Made by a program: the position numbers and the translations under genes. The notes beneath the pieces are model-generated. The model did not search any database. It was not told the origin of the DNA and saw only the letters and a list, made by a program, of their open reading frames with translations. A stretch of 64,000 nt of DNA from Thermococcus onnurineus NA1 (GTDB taxonomy: Archaea > Methanobacteriota_B > Thermococci > Thermococcales > Thermococcaceae): assembly GCF_000018365.1 (NCBI RefSeq), contig NC_011529.1:1674001-1738000 (forward strand). Direction: 5' to 3'. Position 1 is the first letter of the stretch; every line of letters starts with the position of its first letter. This document shows, piece after piece, positions 4,209 through 54,782 of this stretch.

Positions 4209-4736
4209 ATGAGTGACGATGCTACCAAAGAGAGGATATGGATTCTGATAACGCCTGACAAGTGCAGCGGCTGCAGACTCTGCGAAATAGCTTGCTCACT
4301 GGAGCACGAGGGGATAATATGGCCGGAAGCTTCGCGCATAAGAATATACGAGCTTCTGCCCGGAGTTAACGTCCCGCACACCTGCGTTCAGTGTCCTGAT
4401 TATCCATGCGTTGAGGCATGCAACTTTGATGCCTTGGGCGTGAATGAGAGAACTGGAGCGGTTCTCGTGAACGAAGACAACTGCACCGAGTGCGGCGCCT
4501 GTTTCCTTGCCTGCCCCGGTAACGTCCCAAGGATTCTCCCCGGTAAGAGAAGCGTGGTCATCTGCGACCTCTGTGGCGGAAACCCGAAATGCGTCGAGGT
4601 ATGCCACGAGGCTGGTCACGACGCCCTAACCCTCGTGAAGGGTGACTACCGCTCGATCTACAGGACGTTCGCCAAAGACCCTGTGGAGAAGAGCGAGGAA
4701 CTCTCGAGAAAGATGTACGGGGAGTTGTTGGGGTGA
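4209..4736 (+). CDS. Polyferredoxin electron-transfer subunit with four [4Fe-4S] sites
   Basis: A 175-residue (about 19 kDa) protein with sixteen cysteines in four sets: CSGCRLCEIAC, CVQCPDYPCVEAC, CTECGACFLAC and CDLCGGNPKCVEVC. It resembles the small iron-sulfur subunit that accompanies tungsten oxidoreductase WOR5 of Pyrococcus furiosus (established family knowledge). It presumably takes electrons from the adjacent oxidoreductase and passes them to soluble ferredoxin. ATG at 4209 is chosen over an upstream in-frame GTG at 4200 because AGGTG lies 5-7 nt before it. It ends 4 nt before the next start, so the two genes are surely co-transcribed and probably form a complex. Confidence 0.93.
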   Translation: MSDDATKERIWILITPDKCSGCRLCEIACSLEHEGIIWPEASRIRIYELLPGVNVPHTCVQCPDYPCVEACNFDALGVNERTGAVLVNEDNCTECGACFLACPGNVPRILPGKRSVVICDLCGGNPKCVEVCHEAGHDALTLVKGDYRSIYRTFAKDPVEKSEELSRKMYGELLG

Positions 4737-4740
4737 TAAC

Positions 4741-6612
4741 ATGAAGGGATACGCTGGAAAGCTGATAGACGTTGATCTTAGCACCGAGACAGTGAAATTC
4801 GTTGAGCTCGACGAGGAGATGCTGCGGTTCTACGGTGGCAGGGGACTGGGGACTTACCTCCTCTGGAAGGAGCTGGGAGAGAGATGGGAAGATATTGATC
4901 CACTTGGTGAGGAGAACCTTCTACTCATCCTCACGGGCCCGCTGACCGGCTACTATCCGGGTATCAAAACCTCTGTCGTTGCAAAGTCCCCTGAGAGCAA
5001 CGGTATCGTTGGCAGCGTCCTGAGCAGCGAGATCGGAATCGAGCTCAAAGCCTCTGGCTATGACGGAATAATAATCCGCGGGAGGGCAAAAGAGCCGGTA
5101 TACCTATTCATAAACGATGAAACCATCGAGATACGCGACGCCTCGAAGTACTGGGGAATGGGTGGTGTTGAGCTTCACAAGACACTCCTTAAGGAAGTTC
5201 ATGACGAGCTGAGGAAAAGGGCGAAGCTCAGGGGTGTCCCCAAGGAGCCAGCCATGATGTACATCGGGAGGGGTGGGGAGAACAAAGTCCGCTTCGCTGC
5301 GATAATGGCGAAGATGATGCACGCCGCTGGCTACGGTGGCTTTGGAGCGGTGATGGGCAGCAAGAACCTTAAAGCAGTCCTCGTGAAGGGTAACGGACCT
5401 CTGCCTGAAGTTCACGATTCAACGAAGTTCAAGGCCATGCTCCGGGAGTTCCAGCGCGAACTGTTAACCCTCACGACATTCAGGCAGTGGGGAACCGGAT
5501 CTGGCGGTTACAGCGTCGGAAAGGATCGCTCGAGCCAGCCGGTGAGGAACTGGCAGGAGGAGTATCACGACGACGAGAGGATAAGTGTAGTTAACTTCGA
5601 GCTCAGGACATGGGTCAAGAAGTATTGGGCAGACTACGGCTGTCCCGTCAACTGCATGAAGATTTCCTACCTCCGCTACGGGCCGTATAAGGGAGCCATC
5701 ACAGATGCCCCTGACTACGAGCTGATGGCCTACATGGGAACCAACCTCGGCATCTTCGAGCCTGAGAAGATAGTCTACCTCTCATACCTCGTGGATGAGC
5801 TGGGTTTGGATGGCATAAACGCCGGCAACGTCCTCGGCTTTGCTGCCGAGCTCTATCAGAGGGGCATCCTCACGGAGGAGGACATCGGCTTCAGGCTTGA
5901 GTGGGGCGATGAGAAGGCCTTTGCGAGGCTCCTTGAACTGATAGTCGAGAGGGAAGGGATAGGTGAAATCCTCGCGGAAGGAACCTACAGGGCCGCGCTC
6001 AAGATTTCCGAGATGAAAGGCGTTGATGCCATGAAGTACGCCGTCCACGTCAAGGGCATAGGCATCGGAGCGCACGGGATAAGGAGCGACCTCGACTACA
6101 CCAGAGACATAAGCTACGCCGTTTCCGTTCAGGGCGGCGACCACACAGCGACGGCAGGACTTCCCGCGAGGAGCTACGAGGGCGAGCTGGTGAATGCTTT
6201 CTACGACTCGGCCGTCATCTGCATGTTCACCACCAGACCGGGCTTTGAGAGAATACTGGAGTTTGGAAACGCCATCACGGGCTTCGATCTGACACCGGAG
6301 AAGTGGTTCAACGAGACCGGTCTGAGAATAATCCATCTCCAGAGAATACTCCTTCTCCTCGGCGGACCTGACGTTTACTGGGATCCAAGGAGAGACGACG
6401 ACAATCCACAGCGCTTCTACGAACCCCTGCCGAGTGGCCCTGTTAAAGGCAAGGCCCCAAGCAGAGAGGAGATACGTGCGAAGGTGAGACAATACTACGA
6501 TGAGGTCGGCTACGACGAGCACGGCATCCCGAAGGAGGAAGTCCTTGAAGAGCTTGGCATAGGTGAAGCGAAGCGCGAGGTTAAGCGTATAAGGAAGCGC
6601 CTCGGCCTCTAA
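4741..6612 (+). CDS. Tungsten-dependent aldehyde:ferredoxin oxidoreductase family enzyme, WOR4/WOR5-like
   Basis: A 623-residue member of the AOR family, which oxidises aldehydes to acids using a tungsten bis-pterin and one iron-sulfur cluster. N-terminal features are typical: GYAGKLIDVDLS, FYGGRGLGTYLL, and the pterin-binding YIGRGGENKVRFAA and AGYGGFGAVMGSKNLKA. The cluster motif that is normally C-x2-C-x3-C reads D298-Y-G-C301-P-V-N-C305, with the distal ligand Cys494 in DSAVICMF, so one Cys is replaced by Asp. That substitution suggests a [3Fe-4S] or Asp-ligated cluster, as I recall reported for P. furiosus WOR4. The ATG at 4741 directly follows the ferredoxin gene; an open frame further upstream is an artefact. 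The aldehyde substrate is unknown. Confidence 0.93.
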   Translation: MKGYAGKLIDVDLSTETVKFVELDEEMLRFYGGRGLGTYLLWKELGERWEDIDPLGEENLLLILTGPLTGYYPGIKTSVVAKSPESNGIVGSVLSSEIGIELKASGYDGIIIRGRAKEPVYLFINDETIEIRDASKYWGMGGVELHKTLLKEVHDELRKRAKLRGVPKEPAMMYIGRGGENKVRFAAIMAKMMHAAGYGGFGAVMGSKNLKAVLVKGNGPLPEVHDSTKFKAMLREFQRELLTLTTFRQWGTGSGGYSVGKDRSSQPVRNWQEEYHDDERISVVNFELRTWVKKYWADYGCPVNCMKISYLRYGPYKGAITDAPDYELMAYMGTNLGIFEPEKIVYLSYLVDELGLDGINAGNVLGFAAELYQRGILTEEDIGFRLEWGDEKAFARLLELIVEREGIGEILAEGTYRAALKISEMKGVDAMKYAVHVKGIGIGAHGIRSDLDYTRDISYAVSVQGGDHTATAGLPARSYEGELVNAFYDSAVICMFTTRPGFERILEFGNAITGFDLTPEKWFNETGLRIIHLQRILLLLGGPDVYWDPRRDDDNPQRFYEPLPSGPVKGKAPSREEIRAKVRQYYDEVGYDEHGIPKEEVLEELGIGEAKREVKRIRKRLGL

Positions 6613-46564: not shown

Positions 46565-47518
46565 TCAGATGGTTGAGAGAAGCTCCCTAACCGTCCTCCT
46601 TACGGCTTCGTAGCTGTTGAGCTTCGGCTCCCAGCCGGTTTTCTTCGCTTTCTCTATGCTCAGGCGCATGAACTTGACGTCGCCCTTCCAGCCGCGGCCA
46701 CCGTCGACTCCACCTGTGAACCTGAAGGCTGGATTCAGCCCCATCTCCTCGCTGACTATCTCGGCGATTTCCCTGACGGTTATCCAGTCGTCGTTTCCGA
46801 GGTTGTAAGCGTCGTAGGTTTTGCCTTCCTTCCTGAAGTGCTCGAAGATGTGGAGCATCCCATCAACGGTGTCGCTCACGTGGAGGTAGCTCTTCCTCTG
46901 GGTTCCGTCGCCCAGAATTTCCAGTTCATTGGGGTTCTTCCTGAGCTTGTTGATGAAGTCGTAGATGACGCCGTGGTTGGAGCGCTCGCCTATTATGTTG
47001 GCCAGCCTGAAGACGAGAGCTTTGAAGTCGAAGGTGTGGGCGTAGCCGCTTATCAGGGCTTCAGCCGCGAGCTTCGCCCCGCCGTAGACGCTTATCGGCT
47101 CGAGCGGGGCGTAGTCCTCTGGAGTGGGGATGACCTCGGCGTCGCCGTAGACCGTCGATGACGAGGTGAAAACGAGGTATTTGACCCCGGATTTCCTCAT
47201 TGCTTCAAGGAGGTTGTAGGTTATAACGACGTTGGTCTCGTAGAGCAGCTCCGGGCTCTGAGAGCCGATCCTAACCTCCGGATTGGCGGCGAGATGGAAG
47301 ACCACCTCTACGTCTTCAACGGCCTTCTCCACGATTTCCCGATTTCTCATGTCTCCCTCTATGAACTCGAACCTCTCATGCTTGAGCCAGCGTTTAAGGT
47401 TGTCCAGACTGCCGGCGCTTAAATCGTCCAGAACCCTGACCTCGTATCCGAGCTCCATGAGCCTGTCCACAAGATGGGAGCCTATGAAGCCTGCACCGCC
47501 CGTGACCAGAACCTTCAT
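46565..47518 (-). CDS. NAD-dependent nucleotide-sugar epimerase/dehydratase (GalE-like)
   Basis: 317 residues, extended SDR. The Rossmann motif is VTGGAGFIGSHLVDRL; catalytic residues are in FTSSSTVYGDAEVIPTPEDY and SVYGGAKLAAEALI (Y-x3-K). LANIIGERSNHGVIYDFI, GDGTQRKSYLHVSDTVDGML and a binding loop follow. Most similar to archaeal UDP-glucose/galactose 4-epimerases, though the exact sugar cannot be read. GGGTGGT lies before the ATG. Divergent from the next nucleotidyltransferase. Confidence 0.92.
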   Translation of the reverse strand: MKVLVTGGAGFIGSHLVDRLMELGYEVRVLDDLSAGSLDNLKRWLKHERFEFIEGDMRNREIVEKAVEDVEVVFHLAANPEVRIGSQSPELLYETNVVITYNLLEAMRKSGVKYLVFTSSSTVYGDAEVIPTPEDYAPLEPISVYGGAKLAAEALISGYAHTFDFKALVFRLANIIGERSNHGVIYDFINKLRKNPNELEILGDGTQRKSYLHVSDTVDGMLHIFEHFRKEGKTYDAYNLGNDDWITVREIAEIVSEEMGLNPAFRFTGGVDGGRGWKGDVKFMRLSIEKAKKTGWEPKLNSYEAVRRTVRELLSTI

Positions 47519-47556: not shown

Positions 47557-47605
47557 ATGTTAGGGGTAAACCCTGTGGTTGAAGTACGTTGGAACGGTGA
47601 GCGCC

Positions 47606-48601
47606 ATGAAGGTTCTGATAATGGCCGGCGGCTACGCGACGAGGCTCTGGCCCATAACCAAAGATAATCCTAAAGCTTTACTCCCTGTCGGGAACAAGGT
47701 GATACTGGACTACATTCTGGAAAAGGTCGACGAGCTTGGTCTCGAAGCCTACATATCGACCAACAGGTTCTTTGAGATGCACTTCCGTCCCTACGCTGAG
47801 AGGAATGGCATAAACCTCATCGTGGAAGACACCCTCCACGAGGAGGAGAAGCTCGGAACGATAGGGGCTATGAAAAAGGCCGTGGAGGAGCTCGGTTCAG
47901 ATGACTACCTCATCATAGCCGGCGACAACCTGTTCTCCTTCAGCCTGGTGGACTTCCTGAAGGCCTACGACGGGAGGACCCTCATAGCGGTCTACGACGT
48001 CGGCGACCTAGAGCTGGCCAAGCGCTACGGTGTGGTCGTTCTTGAAGGCGACAGGGTCATCTCCTTCCAGGAGAAGCCGGCCGAGCCGAAGTCGACTCTC
48101 GTCAGCACGGGCGTTTACATCTTCCCGAGAAGGGTAATGGAGAAAATCGATGAGTACCTCTCCGACGGAAACAAGGATTCACCGGGCTACTTCATCCAGT
48201 GGCTCTTGGAGAAGGGTGAGGACATCAGGGCCTACCGCTTCTCCGAGTACTGGTACGACATAGGAAGTGCGGACAGCTACCTGGAGGCCCTCAAGACTCT
48301 CCTCAGAGAGAGCCACGTCGAGGAGATTCAAATAAGCCCCTACGCCAAGATAATCCCGCCGGTGGTCATAAAGAAGGGCGCCAAAATACTCGGCAGGTCG
48401 ATAATAGGGCCGTACGCCTACATAGGCGAGGAGTGCGTCATAGAGAACTCCGACATCAGCGACTCGATAGTATTCAGAAAGACCATAATCAGGAACTCGA
48501 CGATATGGCGCTCCATCATCGATGAGAAGTGCGAGATAAGGAACCTTGAACTGAGAAAGAGCCTCGTCGGGGGTCACGCAAAGATACAGAGGGGCGAGTG
48601 A
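47606..48601 (+). CDS. Sugar-1-phosphate nucleotidyltransferase with left-handed beta-helix tail
   Basis: 331 residues. It makes an NDP-sugar from NTP and sugar-1-phosphate. The N-terminus MKVLIMAGGYATRLWPITKD has the G-G-x-x-T-R-L-x-P loop, and LIIAGDNLFSF and GVYIFPRRVM follow. The last ~90 residues form hexapeptide repeats (IIPPVVIKKGAKILG, IIGPYAYIGEECVI). ATG 47606 has GGTGAG upstream; a 9-residue in-frame extension has none. Confidence 0.93.
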   Translation: MKVLIMAGGYATRLWPITKDNPKALLPVGNKVILDYILEKVDELGLEAYISTNRFFEMHFRPYAERNGINLIVEDTLHEEEKLGTIGAMKKAVEELGSDDYLIIAGDNLFSFSLVDFLKAYDGRTLIAVYDVGDLELAKRYGVVVLEGDRVISFQEKPAEPKSTLVSTGVYIFPRRVMEKIDEYLSDGNKDSPGYFIQWLLEKGEDIRAYRFSEYWYDIGSADSYLEALKTLLRESHVEEIQISPYAKIIPPVVIKKGAKILGRSIIGPYAYIGEECVIENSDISDSIVFRKTIIRNSTIWRSIIDEKCEIRNLELRKSLVGGHAKIQRGE

Positions 48602-48821
48602 GGCTTGCGTGGACATGAATTTCCCTGCTTATTATTATTGCCAAAGATTTCGGGGAGGTTCAATATGGAGCCCCGCGTTCATTCCACTTTGTGAGAGCTG
48701 GGATAGTGGACTATTTTTCTTTTTCCTATTGAACTATCATTTCCCTGTCTTGGAAGGGACTTCCTGCCCATGCGGTTAAACTTAGAGAATTCACACCCTG
48801 CCTGAAACAGGTGGGGTCTCA
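48602..48821. other. Gene-free stretch between the nucleotidyltransferase and the decayed ATPase
   Basis: About 220 bases. It includes a 9-codon frame with a strong RBS (GGGGAGGTTCAAT then ATG at 48665) ending in TGA, possibly a gene remnant; nothing else recognised. Confidence 0.4.
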
Positions 48822-49873
48822 ATGCTTTTTGACACCAGAATACTGGGAGCTAGTTGAGAAAATCGAAAACGGAAGGAACTTCTTTGTCATAACTGGTCCA
48901 AGGAGGATTGGAAAAACTACCTTCCTCACAGCTGCACTGAATGACCTCTATGAGAAATACGAAATACCACACATAATCATCGACGCAAGGACCATCTCAA
49001 CCGTTAACTCGAAGAACCCTCAAGGGCAAATTGTGAGAGAAATCCTTTAGCATTAAAAAGCATTCCAAAAAAAGGCCGCTCTCAAAAATAACAGACTCCA
49101 TTGACAGCATCACTATCAAAGGAGTTAAACTAAAGCTCAAGAAGGACACCGAGTATACCTTGCCAGACATTCTACGGGAGCTCAACAACTCCAACGACGT
49201 GCTCATCATAGCGTACGACGAAGCGCAGTACTTCAGGTATGCAAACGAAGACTTTACAAAAATCCTTGCCTGGGTTTACGACAAGCTCCCCAATATAATC
49301 ACGATTGTGACGGGCTCACAGGTGGGGGTTCTTGAAAACTTCCTGCGCTTTGACGACTACAAAGCCCCCCTTTACGGCAGATACCACGTGAAAATACCGC
49401 TAACGAGGTTCACTCCCTCCTAGAGTTTCGAGTTCCTTGAGAGAGGTTTTGAAGAGTATGGATTGCCTGTGAATCCAAAAGATATACTCTCGGCCATCAA
49501 GGCTCTTGATGGGGTACCTGGCTGGCTGACGCACTACGGGGCAAGCAGAATTGATGGAAAGACCCACTGGGACGCTATTCATGACGTTCTCACTGAGGCT
49601 GAAGGGTACATTCGTTCGGAGTTCGAAGAACTTGACAGGGCTTCTCCGAGGTACAGGCGGATTATGGAGATTGTAGCAAGTATCACTTCCCGGAAAGACT
49701 CTGCCTCTTGGACTGAGATAAAGAACGCCCTTGAGCTCAGGGAAGGTAAGGAGATTGATGACAAAAATATTAACCTACTCCTTAAAAAGCTCGTTAACTA
49801 CGGTTTCCTTGAACATGTGGGAAGGGAATACAGTATTCCAGACCCAGTAATCAAGAGAATCTTCCAAACCTGA
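48822..49873 (+). pseudogene. Decayed archaeal P-loop ATPase (PF01637 type)
   Basis: Recognisable parts are the N-terminus MLFDTR after GGTGGGG, the P-loop FFVITGPRRIGKTTF, the Walker B region DVLIIAYDEAQYFRY, IVTGSQVGVLENFL, YHVKIPLTRF and the C-terminal winged-helix part ASITSRKDSASWTEIKNALE to RIFQT. The reading frame is broken at least three times: just after MLFDTR (about 48840), near 49040-49050 where REIL meets a stop while EKSFSIKK continues in the next frame, and by an in-frame TAG at 49421-49423 inside TPS-stop-SFEFLERGF. Intact relatives are ~350-450 residues, often linked to mobile or toxin-like loci. Clearly inactive as a full protein. Confidence 0.9.
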
Positions 49874-49922
49874 CTTTTTCCTTAGCCCTACTAAGTTTTG
49901 AATCAGTGATATGAGAAGAAGT

Positions 49923-50085
49923 GAGGAGCGCCATACAGACGAGTCTGGAGTGAAGTTTCACTCTTGACAGACCTCTCCCTGCTTAATAGTGGCCCATGAC
50001 CCTCTCGGATCATGGAATCACTGTTCGGGTTAGGTCTGCCTGGGGTGAAGCTTTCGCTTCAGTCTCCCCTGCAGGCACTCCTCAT
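49923..50085 (-). ncRNA. Structured RNA, copy 1 of a tandem pair
   Basis: On the reverse strand the RNA begins near ATGAGGAGTGCC, about 25 nt after a strong TATA box (50107-50117). Its ends pair: GAGGAGTGCC (50083-50074) with GGCGCTCCTC (49932-49923), 10 bp with one G-U. Inside are a hairpin TGAAGC-GAAA-GCTTCA (50061-50046), a 9-bp hairpin closed by GAGA (50015-49994), a long-range pairing of GCAGACCT with AGGTCTGT, and a small 3' hairpin of GAGTGA and TCACTC. Two GNRA tetraloops suggest a folded RNA rather than an mRNA. No continuous reading frame is shared with copy 2. The 3' end is taken at the closing stem; a pyrimidine-rich tail may follow. Confidence 0.7.
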
Positions 50086-50167
50086 ATAGTATTGGGTGTT
50101 TTAACTATATAAATCTTTGCTTTTATTTAAAGCAAAATTTTTTGACAACTCCTTGAAATAATTTCAA
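50074..50167. repeat. Direct repeat A: promoter and 5' end of RNA copy 1
   Basis: 94 bases that recur at 50387-50480 with about ten differences and no indels. It includes the RNA 5' arm, the TATA box, the inverted repeat TTTGCTTT-5-AAAGCAAA (50116-50136) and the palindrome TTGAAAT-A-ATTTCAA (50153-50167). Both inverted repeats are perfect here and imperfect in the second copy. Confidence 0.9.
50107..50117 (-). promoter_or_regulatory. Promoter of structured RNA copy 1
   Basis: The reverse strand reads GCAAAGATTTATATAG: a BRE-like GCAAAGA and TATA TTTATATAG. It sits about 25 nt before the proposed 5' end and is repeated almost exactly ahead of copy 2. Confidence 0.7.
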
Positions 50168-50242
50168 CCATGCTGGGATCTGAGTTGGAAGCGGAGGGTA
50201 TTCATGTAAGAATAGAAATTGAATCAGGCGCGAGAAGATAGT

Positions 50243-50398
50243 GAGGAGCACCTTGAAATCGGGACCTCGGCGAAAATCCCATCCTCAAGGAACGCCAGGC
50301 TTGTGACTCCAGCCCTCCGGACTTGTGGAACACGTTAGGCTTAGCATCCATCAAGGGTGAAACTTTCGCTTCGGTCTCACCAACAGGGCACTCCTCAT
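50243..50398 (-). ncRNA. Structured RNA, copy 2 of a tandem pair
   Basis: Same design as copy 1. The 5' arm GAGGAGTGCC (50396-50387) is identical; the 3' arm is GGTGCTCCTC (50252-50243), which differs from copy 1 but still pairs (two G-U). The hairpin becomes GAAGC-GAAA-GTTTC (50372-50359), keeping the stem through a G-U. A second hairpin AGTCC-GGA-GGGCT occupies the place of the GAGA hairpin. Most other sequence has diverged. Conserved pairing with diverged sequence is what a functional RNA shows. Its own TATA box is at 50419-50429. Confidence 0.7.
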
Positions 50399-50480
50399 AT
50401 AGTATTGGGTGTTTTAACTATATAAACCTTTGCTTTTATTTAAATCAAAATTTTTTGGCAACTTTCCGAGATAATTTCAA
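50387..50480. repeat. Direct repeat B: promoter and 5' end of RNA copy 2
   Basis: Partner of the repeat at 50074-50167, 313 bases away, same length. The TATA box and 5' arm are kept while the two upstream palindromes are each damaged (AAATCAAA; GAGATAATTTCAA). Confidence 0.9.
50419..50429 (-). promoter_or_regulatory. Promoter of structured RNA copy 2
   Basis: The reverse strand reads GCAAAGGTTTATATAG, one base different from the copy 1 promoter, at the same distance from the 5' arm. Confidence 0.7.
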
Positions 50481-50637
50481 TCAGGTTGGGAATTCGGTTT
50501 GAGATGGAGTGTTTAGTAGTTAGCTAAAATGGAAATCGAATCGTACATTGAAAAGACGGAGAAATAGAATTTCCTGCTTTTTCAAACCCAACCCTTAAAT
50601 TCTTCGAGAACCAAAAGTTAATGATGGGGTGTGGGTA

Positions 50638-51282
50638 ATGGGTGAGAAATTAATTAAGGTGCTGACGGTTCTCGTGGTTGTTCTGCTTGTCTTCAACATC
50701 GGCATGGTCTACGGTGCACTCAAAGCCAGGAGCATAGCGCTGGAGGAGATAGAGGGCGTCATAACCCTTGTGGATGGCATGAAGAGCGAGAGGATAACAA
50801 TCCAGTATCCGTTCGACCAGGAGATACAGGTCCCTCTCCGGATGAACCTCAGTGTTCCTGTTTCCATGGTGACGAGGGTTCCGGTAAATGAGGAGATTGC
50901 CGTGAAGGTTCCTCTCGATACCTACGTTGACGTTCCCGTAAACAAGACTGTGAAAGTGCACATCGCCCAGAACATAACCACCACCGTCGAAGTGAACGGC
51001 AAGCAGGAGACGGTGATAATTCCGCTTGATACCTACGTCGATGTCCCGATAGTCACGACGGTTAGGGTTAGGGTCAGGGACGTTGTAGACACCACAGTGC
51101 CGCTCAACATGACCCTTGAGGTGCCGATAAACCAGACGGTTGTTGTGCCGATAGACGAGACGCTGACCGTTCCGATTAAGATGAACCTCACCATCAAGAC
51201 GACGCCGGAGGAGATGGGCCTCGGAGATCTGATTGATAGGGTTGTTAAGATGCTCGAGGGGATGAAGGCGGCGATTGGGTGA
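50638..51282 (+). CDS. Membrane-anchored protein of VP-rich beta repeats
   Basis: 214 residues: an N-terminal helix (LIKVLTVLVVVLLVFNIGMVYGAL), a short linker, then about 130 residues in which short strands repeat with V-P-x turns: QVPLRMNLSVPVSMVTRVPV, VPLDTYVDVPVNKTVKV, IPLDTYVDVPIVTTVRV, VPLNMTLEVPINQTVVVPI. A helical tail (LGDLIDRVVKMLEGMKAAIG) ends it. No family recognised; it looks like a fibrous or beta-solenoid surface stalk, or a membrane-tethered spacer. ATG 50638 follows GGGGTGTG. A TATA-like CCTTAAATTC (about 50593-50602) lies upstream. It precedes the rhamnose operon. Confidence 0.8.
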   Translation: MGEKLIKVLTVLVVVLLVFNIGMVYGALKARSIALEEIEGVITLVDGMKSERITIQYPFDQEIQVPLRMNLSVPVSMVTRVPVNEEIAVKVPLDTYVDVPVNKTVKVHIAQNITTTVEVNGKQETVIIPLDTYVDVPIVTTVRVRVRDVVDTTVPLNMTLEVPINQTVVVPIDETLTVPIKMNLTIKTTPEEMGLGDLIDRVVKMLEGMKAAIG

Positions 51283-53480: not shown

Positions 53481-53508
53481 TTAAATATGTGCATACACAT
53501 AATTATGT
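53481..53508 (+). promoter_or_regulatory. Promoter and operator of toxin-antitoxin module 1
   Basis: TATA-like TTAAATATG (53481-53489) is followed by the perfect 12-bp palindrome ACATAATTATGT (53497-53508), which sits between TATA and the expected start point. That is the expected place for autorepression by the ribbon-helix-helix antitoxin. Confidence 0.5.
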
Positions 53509-53519
53509 ATGGTGATGAT

Positions 53520-53807
53520 ATGCCAACTATGACCCTTTCAATACCTCCGGAGCTCTACCGCAAGATGAAGAAGCACCCAGAAATCAAATGGAGCGAAGTG
53601 GCGAGAAAAGCCATAGCCGAGTACCTCAGTGAGCTTGAGAACTCCCGAACCGAGATGTCCATGTTGGAGTTCAGAGAACTTCTGGGGGATGAGACCCTCA
53701 GGGAGATGGAGTCCATTCCGGACGAGGCTTACGAGGAATACTACAGGAAAATGAGGGATCTGGAATGGGAGAGGACAAAAAGAAACTCTACGACACGAAC
53801 GTCCTGA
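53520..53807 (+). CDS. Ribbon-helix-helix antitoxin (VapB-like), module 1
   Basis: 95 residues. The N-terminal strand-helix-helix PTMTLSIPPELYRKMKKHPEIK then WSEVARKAIAEYLSEL is a MetJ/Arc-type DNA-binding domain, and the acidic C-terminal half would wrap the toxin. ATG 53520 follows TGGTGATGAT; earlier in-frame ATGs would lie in the operator. It overlaps the next gene by 43 bases in another frame, an unusually long overlap. Confidence 0.88.
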   Translation: MPTMTLSIPPELYRKMKKHPEIKWSEVARKAIAEYLSELENSRTEMSMLEFRELLGDETLREMESIPDEAYEEYYRKMRDLEWERTKRNSTTRTS

Positions 53808-54106
53808 TCGACCTAGTTAAAAGCGGCGAGAACCCCGGGGACGGCTATACAACGGCGCTGAATCTTGTGGAATACCCAAAGGGAGTCTCTCTGGATCTGG
53901 GAGTCCTCATACCATCGCCCAAAGAATACGCTCTGGCTGTTAAGCTCTCAGAGAAACTTGTAAAGGCAGGCACCCCTGTTCCCGCCGTGGACGTGATAAT
54001 CGCCGCCGTTGCAATATCCAGGGGGATGACCCTCGTGACAAAGGACAGACATTTCTCGCGGATAAAGAAGGTTGCCCCCGAGCTCAGACTCGAACTGGTT
54101 GAATAA
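53765..54106 (+). CDS. PIN-domain ribonuclease toxin (VapC-like), module 1
   Basis: 113 residues. LYDTNVLIDLVKSGEN provides the first PIN acidic motif (D-T-N), AVDVIIAAVAISRGMTLVT the central one, and KDRHFSRIKK the last. VapC enzymes cut tRNA or rRNA. Shorter than most VapC. Translated out of frame from within the antitoxin gene, so likely coupled. Confidence 0.9.
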   Translation: MGEDKKKLYDTNVLIDLVKSGENPGDGYTTALNLVEYPKGVSLDLGVLIPSPKEYALAVKLSEKLVKAGTPVPAVDVIIAAVAISRGMTLVTKDRHFSRIKKVAPELRLELVE

Positions 54107-54180
54107 GATGGGTTATTAATCACTTGGCAGTAAGCAAAAGGTAATTAAGTTCCGCGAGAATGTTTAGGATGGTGAACGTG

Positions 54181-54384
54181 ATGGAGGACGCTTACAAGCT
54201 CTTTCAGCAGCTCCCAGATGACCTCAAGGAGGAGGTGCTGGACTACATCGAGTTTCTCCTGGAGAGGAACGCGCGCAGGAGACGCTCCCCCATGAAGTTT
54301 GGATGGCGCGGGGGGCTGAAGGAGCTCAGGAAGAAGTACACTTCCGTGGAGCTTCAGCACAAGACCCTTGAATGGTGGGGCTGA
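54181..54384 (+). CDS. DUF2281-type antitoxin, module 2
   Basis: 67 residues: YKLFQQLPDDLKEEVLDYIEFLLER, then a basic linker and FGWRGGLKELRKKYTSVELQ before HKTLEWWG. This is the classic DUF2281 pattern whose C-terminus fills the PIN active site. ATG 54181 with GGTG upstream. Its last base overlaps the next ATG. Confidence 0.9.
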   Translation: MEDAYKLFQQLPDDLKEEVLDYIEFLLERNARRRRSPMKFGWRGGLKELRKKYTSVELQHKTLEWWG

Positions 54385-54782
54385 TGTATCTAGTTGATAC
54401 CAACGTGTTCCTTGAAATCCTTCTTGATCAGGAAAACGCTGATAACGCGGAGAGGTTCCTTAGAGAAACTCCACCCAGCGAGCTTGCCGTCTCGGATTTC
54501 TCGGTTTACTCAATAGGGATAATACTCTTCAAGCAGAAGAAACACGGGGTCTTCCGGGAGTTCGTTGAGGACGTTCTCCTGCGCGGTGGGCTCTCCCTGC
54601 TGAGACTCACTCCCTTTGATTTTGAATCCCTGGTTGAAGCCTCCCGTAAATTCCACCTCGATTTTGACGATGCGTACCAGTACACCTTGGCCCGTAAATA
54701 CGGCCTCCGCATAGTCAGCTACGATTCAGATTTTGATGCAACCGATATCGGTAGGGTTACGCCACTTCAGGCGATGAGGTGA
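54384..54782 (+). CDS. PIN-domain ribonuclease toxin, module 2
   Basis: 132 residues: MYLVDTNVFLEILLDQENAD, then SVYSIGIILFKQKKH, FHLDFDDAYQYTLARKYGL and VSYDSDFDATDIGRVTP, the four acidic PIN positions. Start codon shares a base with the antitoxin stop; GGTGGGG upstream. Ends 4 bases before rmlC. Confidence 0.92.
   Translation: MYLVDTNVFLEILLDQENADNAERFLRETPPSELAVSDFSVYSIGIILFKQKKHGVFREFVEDVLLRGGLSLLRLTPFDFESLVEASRKFHLDFDDAYQYTLARKYGLRIVSYDSDFDATDIGRVTPLQAMR

Follow-up and report, generated by a model that had tools for sequence, protein, structure and literature searches.

Two tandem structured RNA genes of Thermococcus onnurineus NA1 and their family in the Thermococcaceae, with a possible role in surface-glycan synthesis

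Comparative analysis of two tandem reverse-strand units in the genome of Thermococcus onnurineus NA1 indicated that they almost certainly represent an RNA gene family. Covariance model matches were obtained in six genera and the helices of the RNA covary, which agrees with the original prediction of a folded RNA family of about 160 nt. The best overall explanation, to which a probability of about 0.6 was given, is that these are structured noncoding RNA genes of the Thermococcaceae acting in trans on surface-glycan synthesis. Few structured RNAs of hyperthermophilic archaea beyond the guide RNAs have a known role, and the function of this RNA is directly testable, given a clean covariance model, a defined promoter and a natural contrast of presence and absence between close relatives. 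Members of the family presumably include both T. onnurineus and T. barophilus, and genetic tools exist for these two species. If the glycan link is true, the family would be an uncommon example of an RNA gene linked to N-glycosylation and sulfate activation in archaea.

Structure of the RNA units

The T. onnurineus NA1 genome consists of a single contig of 1,847,607 bp, from which the window (the whole stretch of DNA that was analysed, 64,000 nucleotides) was taken. As predicted, the two units are spaced by 313 bp, with 5' ends (TGAGGAG) at 50084 for unit A and 50397 for unit B, while their 3' ends (CTCCTCA) are situated at 49922 and 50242, respectively (Table 1). Good agreement between the two RNA bodies is limited to approximately the first 43 nt. 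The folding energy was -87.3 kcal/mol for unit A (z = -8.6) and -71.9 kcal/mol for unit B (z = -5.3), and for neither unit was any of 200 dinucleotide shuffles as stable. With the R1 covariance model the sense strand of unit A scored about twice as high as the antisense strand (159.6 vs 71.1 bits), concordant with the orientation of the TATA box. No conserved protein frame could be found in units A and B, which had been described as sharing none. A cluster of antisense open reading frames (c11), overlapping the units at 12 of the 41 loci and having no Pfam match, was rejected as a by-product of RNA conservation.

Table 1. Coordinates (positions in the window) and properties of the RNA units, their parts, their promoter elements and neighbouring genes
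Feature	Position	Strand	Remarks
RNA unit A	49922..50084	(-)	~163 nt; R1 covariance model 159.6 bits, E 1.3e-38; A in seed
RNA unit B, diverged paralogue	50242..50397	(-)	~156 nt; R1 82.3 bits, E 2.1e-18; B in seed
Unit A closing stem P1, 5' arm TGAGGAGTGCC	50074..50084	(-)	two-sided change in 7 pairs of P1
Unit A closing stem P1, 3' arm GGCGCTCCTCA	49922..49932	(-)	from covariation analysis
Unit A GAAA-capped hairpin H1	50046..50061	(-)	best-conserved element of the family
Unit A long variable arm P3	49966..50040	(-)	of the 34 pairs showing two-sided change in the whole fold, 22 lie in the P3 helices
Unit A second hairpin H4 GAGTGAAACTTCACTC	49948..49963	(-)	two-sided changes in 3 pairs; outcovaries the rod pairing
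TATA box TTTATATA of unit A	50106..50113	(-)	position common to nearly all homologues
TATA box TTTATATA of unit B	50419..50426	(-)	position common to nearly all homologues
Operator-like inverted repeat TTTGCTTTAAATAAAAGCAAA of A	50116..50136	(-)	immediately 5' of TATA box
Operator-like element of B	50429..50449	(-)	1 mismatch to TTTGCTTTAAATAAAAGCAAA
Conserved promoter block of A	50085..50178	(-)	from promoter comparison among homologues
Promoter block of B	50398..50491	(-)	closer to the A-type promoter of G038 than to B-type promoters
Nucleotidyltransferase (c0)	47579..48601	(+)	often adjacent to the RNA in convergent orientation; carried by nearly all Thermococcaceae
NAD-dependent epimerase (c2)	46565..47518	(-)	next neighbour

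For the covariation analysis a model-guided alignment of 35 units, 34 of them distinct, was used. The consensus fold comprises a closing stem of 17 pairs, a short extension, H1, the arm P3 in three helices and H4. Two-sided changes were present in 34 of the 58 pairs, and none of 500 shuffles reached any of five measures. Overall 87.3% of the cells were paired, compared with 38-46% in controls with slid partners; the alignment was fitted to the structure and thus favours it, which is of small concern given the effect size and the slid controls. The 10-bp end-to-end stem claimed for both units, with differing 3' arms, was recovered: the same 5' arm GAGGAGTGCC pairs with GGCGCTCCTC in unit A and with GGTGCTCCTC in unit B, with a G-C to G-U change. 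A change of the same kind separates the H1 hairpins of the two units (GAAGC-GAAA-GCTTC in A, GAAGC-GAAA-GTTTC in B), likewise as claimed. Both structures are maintained among the homologues, with 94.8% of the cells paired in the closing stem and 92.2% in the stem of H1. Because H1 varies little, its support consists mainly of conservation and one-sided G-U changes. Neither a GNRA tetraloop receptor nor a k-turn was found when the RNA was searched by eye.

Distribution, promoters and paralogues

With the R1 covariance model, built from 24 units, 40 of the 94 Thermococcaceae genomes proved to carry the RNA (E down to 1e-38), among them members of all six genera and 36 of the 74 near-complete genomes, whereas none of 21 Thermococci genomes outside this family did. 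A second covariance model, R2, recovered the same 40 genomes. By blastn with unit A, strong homologues were obtained in about two dozen Thermococcaceae genomes, and hits below that level were mostly chance matches. No match was found on plasmids or phages; one viral contig and one Clostridiales contig carrying the exact H1 hairpin string were judged to be chance occurrences. On present evidence, the family is restricted to the Thermococcaceae.

Hidden copies in RNA-negative genomes were sought beside the nucleotidyltransferase gene (40 genomes), at the sulfate-activation block (18 genomes) and genome-wide with R2 (30 genomes), and the only credible results were vestiges in G022 and G060. Both are found at the syntenic place and retain the 3' hairpin and the 3' closing arm. 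In G022 the remains of the promoter are fused to the 3' end of the RNA (L112 5249-5394), and in G060 a decayed 3' half is located beside the same nucleotidyltransferase gene (L120 ~4687-4789). Since these permissive searches returned vestiges only, the patchy distribution is at least partly due to loss and not to missed detection. The RNA is dispensable, as it is absent from half of the genomes including close relatives, and decayed in these two.

A TATA box about 25 nt before the RNA start had been claimed, and TTTATATA was indeed located at -29 to -22 in both units. Conservation in Thermococcus-type genomes extends over about 75 nt upstream, a segment that contains GAAATTATTTC and the inverted repeat TTTGCTTTAAATAAAAGCAAA, the latter being kept in most homologues of the same genus. 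When the whole T. onnurineus genome was searched with up to 3 mismatches, this repeat occurred only at units A and B, and no operator common to other genes was found. The inverted repeat suggests that the RNA genes may have a dedicated regulator. At the opposite end, the closing arm is followed in nearly all loci by a tract rich in pyrimidines or T, which reads TTTTTATT in some genera and CTATTCT in others and would fit an archaeal terminator.

The 94-nt segment described as near-identical between the units covers 82 nt of promoter plus the 12 nt with which the RNA begins, and 85 of its 94 positions match in T. onnurineus. This near-identity turned out to be a local feature, since in G038 and G040, two relatives retaining both units, only 63 and 65 of the 94 positions are shared by the two promoters, with the similarity confined to the TATA-proximal ~45 bp. 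The B units of T. onnurineus (G000), G038 and G040 form a clade of their own (support 0.998); the A/B duplication therefore predates these species. The promoter of unit B in T. onnurineus is of the A type and resembles the A-type promoter of G038. The close relative G028 has a single unit, in which a B-position promoter is joined to an A-type body (L066 7828-8086; 50355-51600 of the window), as would be expected after a deletion between tandem promoters. Because the A and B promoters differ in G038 and G040 and are reshuffled in T. onnurineus and G028, the 94-bp identity is probably the result of exchange at repeats rather than of constraint alone. G042 has two copies, separated by 28 kb, in which the RNA bodies are identical and the promoters diverged (L071 7928-8086; L072 8025-8183); either a recent exchange or gene conversion confined to the transcribed portion could account for this.

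Genomic context and proposed role

Genes surrounding 41 loci were clustered by BLAST. The RNA lies beside the nucleotidyltransferase cluster c0 in 27 of the 41 loci and beside the epimerase cluster c2 in 22, counts that are generous because the clusters include paralogues. A gene of the sulfate-activation block (TauE/SafE, APS kinase, phosphodiesterase, DHH phosphoesterase, ATP sulfurylase and a 78-residue protein) is present within 7.5 kb of the RNA in 26 of the 41 loci and an AglB/STT3 oligosaccharyltransferase is nearby in 17; all these neighbour counts are raw numbers, uncorrected for background. Where the RNA is absent, the nucleotidyltransferase gene is often immediately adjoined by AglB or a flippase-like gene.

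Of the 40 RNA-positive genomes, 38 encode ATP sulfurylase, as against 22 of the 54 RNA-negative ones (Fisher p 2e-8); with near-complete genomes only, the corresponding numbers were 33/35 and 18/37 (p 2e-5). At least 17 changes in RNA presence are needed on a nucleotidyltransferase tree (83 genomes, one protein). Among the 25 closest discordant genome pairs, which are not strictly independent, 14 differed in ATP sulfurylase in the expected direction (four of these involving negative genomes less than 80% complete), one differed against it and 10 were neutral. In T. onnurineus the ATP sulfurylase gene is located 150 kb from the RNA, and the link, if real, therefore acts in trans. In two genomes, G036 and G078, the RNA is present although ATP sulfurylase is missing, which rules out sulfate activation as its sole context; the reverse was seen in 22 genomes.

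The 78-residue protein of the sulfate-activation block looks like a ribbon-helix-helix protein and has no Pfam match. In Thermococcaceae genomes it occurs in two types, with at least 91% and 76-81% identity to the query, and RNA-positive genomes nearly always carry the first type.

A trans role in surface-glycan synthesis is considered most likely because the RNA adjoins genes of this process and tracks the ATP-sulfurylase gene even when it is distant. Each unit would be transcribed from its own BRE/TATA promoter, and the predicted transcript would run from the 5' end of the closing stem to just past its 3' end, giving a compact RNA of 155-175 nt. The H1 hairpin together with the closing stem is the likely recognition core, and the long arm is variable. 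The RNA may then work in trans on N-glycosylation, and probably on sulfate activation, either regulating these processes or forming the RNA component of a small ribonucleoprotein. Its mode of action could be base pairing, protein capture or scaffolding of a ribonucleoprotein. With trans-acting regulatory sRNAs the RNA shares a single gene with its own promoter, a conserved core with a variable arm, and dispensability, but it is far more structured than typical base-pairing sRNAs. The functional tie to the glycan and sulfation module is itself tentative, resting as it does on gene context and co-occurrence. The fullest version, namely an unnamed archaeal RNA family that controls surface glycan sulfation in trans, with a dedicated operator, A/B promoter exchange by recombination and possibly a hairpin-to-rod switch, is rather unlikely to be correct as a whole.

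Relation to known RNA classes and alternative explanations

At the gathering thresholds of Rfam 15, neither the units nor their homologues in other genera were matched, and below threshold nothing consistent appeared in seven homologues. No paper describing this RNA family was found in a literature search (supplements being outside its scope). Since Rfam leaves it unmatched, its homologues are widespread and its fold covaries, the family was assigned as a new structured noncoding RNA family and not as a known Pyrococcus GC-rich family. Of the two possibilities offered originally, a catalogued family of that kind or an unnamed one, the latter thus holds as far as Rfam 15 extends. HgcC (RF00062) is likewise a small noncoding RNA of AT-rich hyperthermophiles and multi-copy in Thermococcus, five HgcC transcripts of T. 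kodakarensis having been confirmed by dRNA-seq (PMC4247193). However, it has no sequence or structure match at 49922-50397, either at the gathering threshold or at E<=10, and the HgcC matches of this genome are located elsewhere and reach at most 40 bits against a criterion of 50 bits; moreover, several HgcC RNAs lie inside transposase genes, unlike units A and B. The sRk48 and sRk52 RNAs of Pyrococcus abyssi, which are 3' ends of OrfB/IS607-like genes (PMC3124441), also represent a repeated structured RNA of about 130 nt in Thermococcales, while units A and B have their own promoter and no OrfB/IS607-like gene was recognised nearby. HgcF, HgcG and SscA, other GC-rich noncoding RNAs of hyperthermophiles, were identified as separate noncoding RNAs in a T. 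onnurineus dRNA-seq study (PMC5316973); they too are structured hyperthermophile RNAs of unknown function, but units A and B lack an Rfam match. That study reports 57 intergenic noncoding RNAs, 22 of them matching Rfam, and the two units may be among the 35 unnamed ones.

Divergence beyond matching from a known archaeal class (H/ACA or C/D guide RNA, a remnant of a TnpB omega RNA, HgcC, or a derivative of SRP RNA or RNase P) is conceivable insofar as archaeal noncoding RNAs of similar size exist in these genomes and the transposase-linked sRk48 and sRk52 are known in Pyrococcus (PMC3124441). It is very improbable, given the absent Rfam match and the location of both ends of the RNA in the closing stem. 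For an H/ACA guide RNA the ACA tail is missing, the 3' end being formed by the closing-stem arm and then the pyrimidine-rich tract, and no H/ACA family of Rfam scored above threshold; for a C/D guide RNA the box pair is missing, with no RUGAUGA in either unit, and the CUGA with which H1 begins is replaced by CCGA or UUGA elsewhere in the family. For an omega RNA of the sRk48/52 type, no tnpB/orfB gene was present among the annotated neighbour clusters, some singleton ORFs being unannotated. A stable structure adjoining metabolic genes would also be explained by a cis-acting leader, riboswitch or attenuator, of the downstream gene. In most loci the next downstream gene is convergent and lies outside the transcript, so that the RNA is not its leader, and the T-rich tract after the 3' arm further argues against this explanation, which is extremely improbable. 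As to the fold itself, H1 and H4 are alike in sequence and could give way to a continuous rod through pairing of the H1 strands with those of H4, as in a two-state switch. The rod pairs 88% of the cells, equal to the hairpins, and is preferred by RNAfold in several homologues and in unit B, yet its covariation did not exceed that of shuffles (117/500, vs 3/500 for the hairpins), and in one clade a change in the H4 loop weakens the rod pairing while the hairpin is kept. Such a switch is decidedly unlikely, though the rod may occur as a minor conformer.

According to the main rival, the units serve chiefly as DNA elements, either as repeats that border exchangeable glycan cassettes and provide homology for recombination, or as a hitchhiking element transported with the cassettes, and the RNA as such would be of little importance. 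Copies in the same orientation flank stretches of glycan genes in G042 (28 kb), G039 (22 kb) and G087 (15 kb), and the identical RNA bodies with different promoters in G042, the reshuffling of promoters and bodies (the B-position promoter on an A body in G028, the A-type promoter of unit B in T. onnurineus) and the patchy presence would all be in accordance with this. What makes it unlikely is that covariation on one strand, the kept TATA spacing and operator, and a fold retained in the diverged B copies need selection on a transcript; in addition, none of the annotated neighbour clusters was recognised as an integrase or a transposase.

Several further features of the region were observed. 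Between the RNA pair and the nucleotidyltransferase gene, a broken ATPase gene of the ATPase_2/DUF234-type cluster is present in three fragments (48811-49873, forward strand); G028 carries an intact 424-aa copy at this position (L066), and ATPases of this type are found near many RNA loci. Divergent from unit B, a 217-aa protein with many short V/P-rich repeats and no Pfam match is encoded at 50629-51282, and three related genomes also have it on the upstream side of the unit. The sole gathering-level Rfam match in the window is the H/ACA RNA Pab91 (RF02795) on the reverse strand at 2631-2686, with 71.1 bits against a threshold of 71. Finally, two small two-gene sets at 53487-54782, within a cluster of sugar-nucleotide genes, resemble toxin-antitoxin pairs of the VapBC type.
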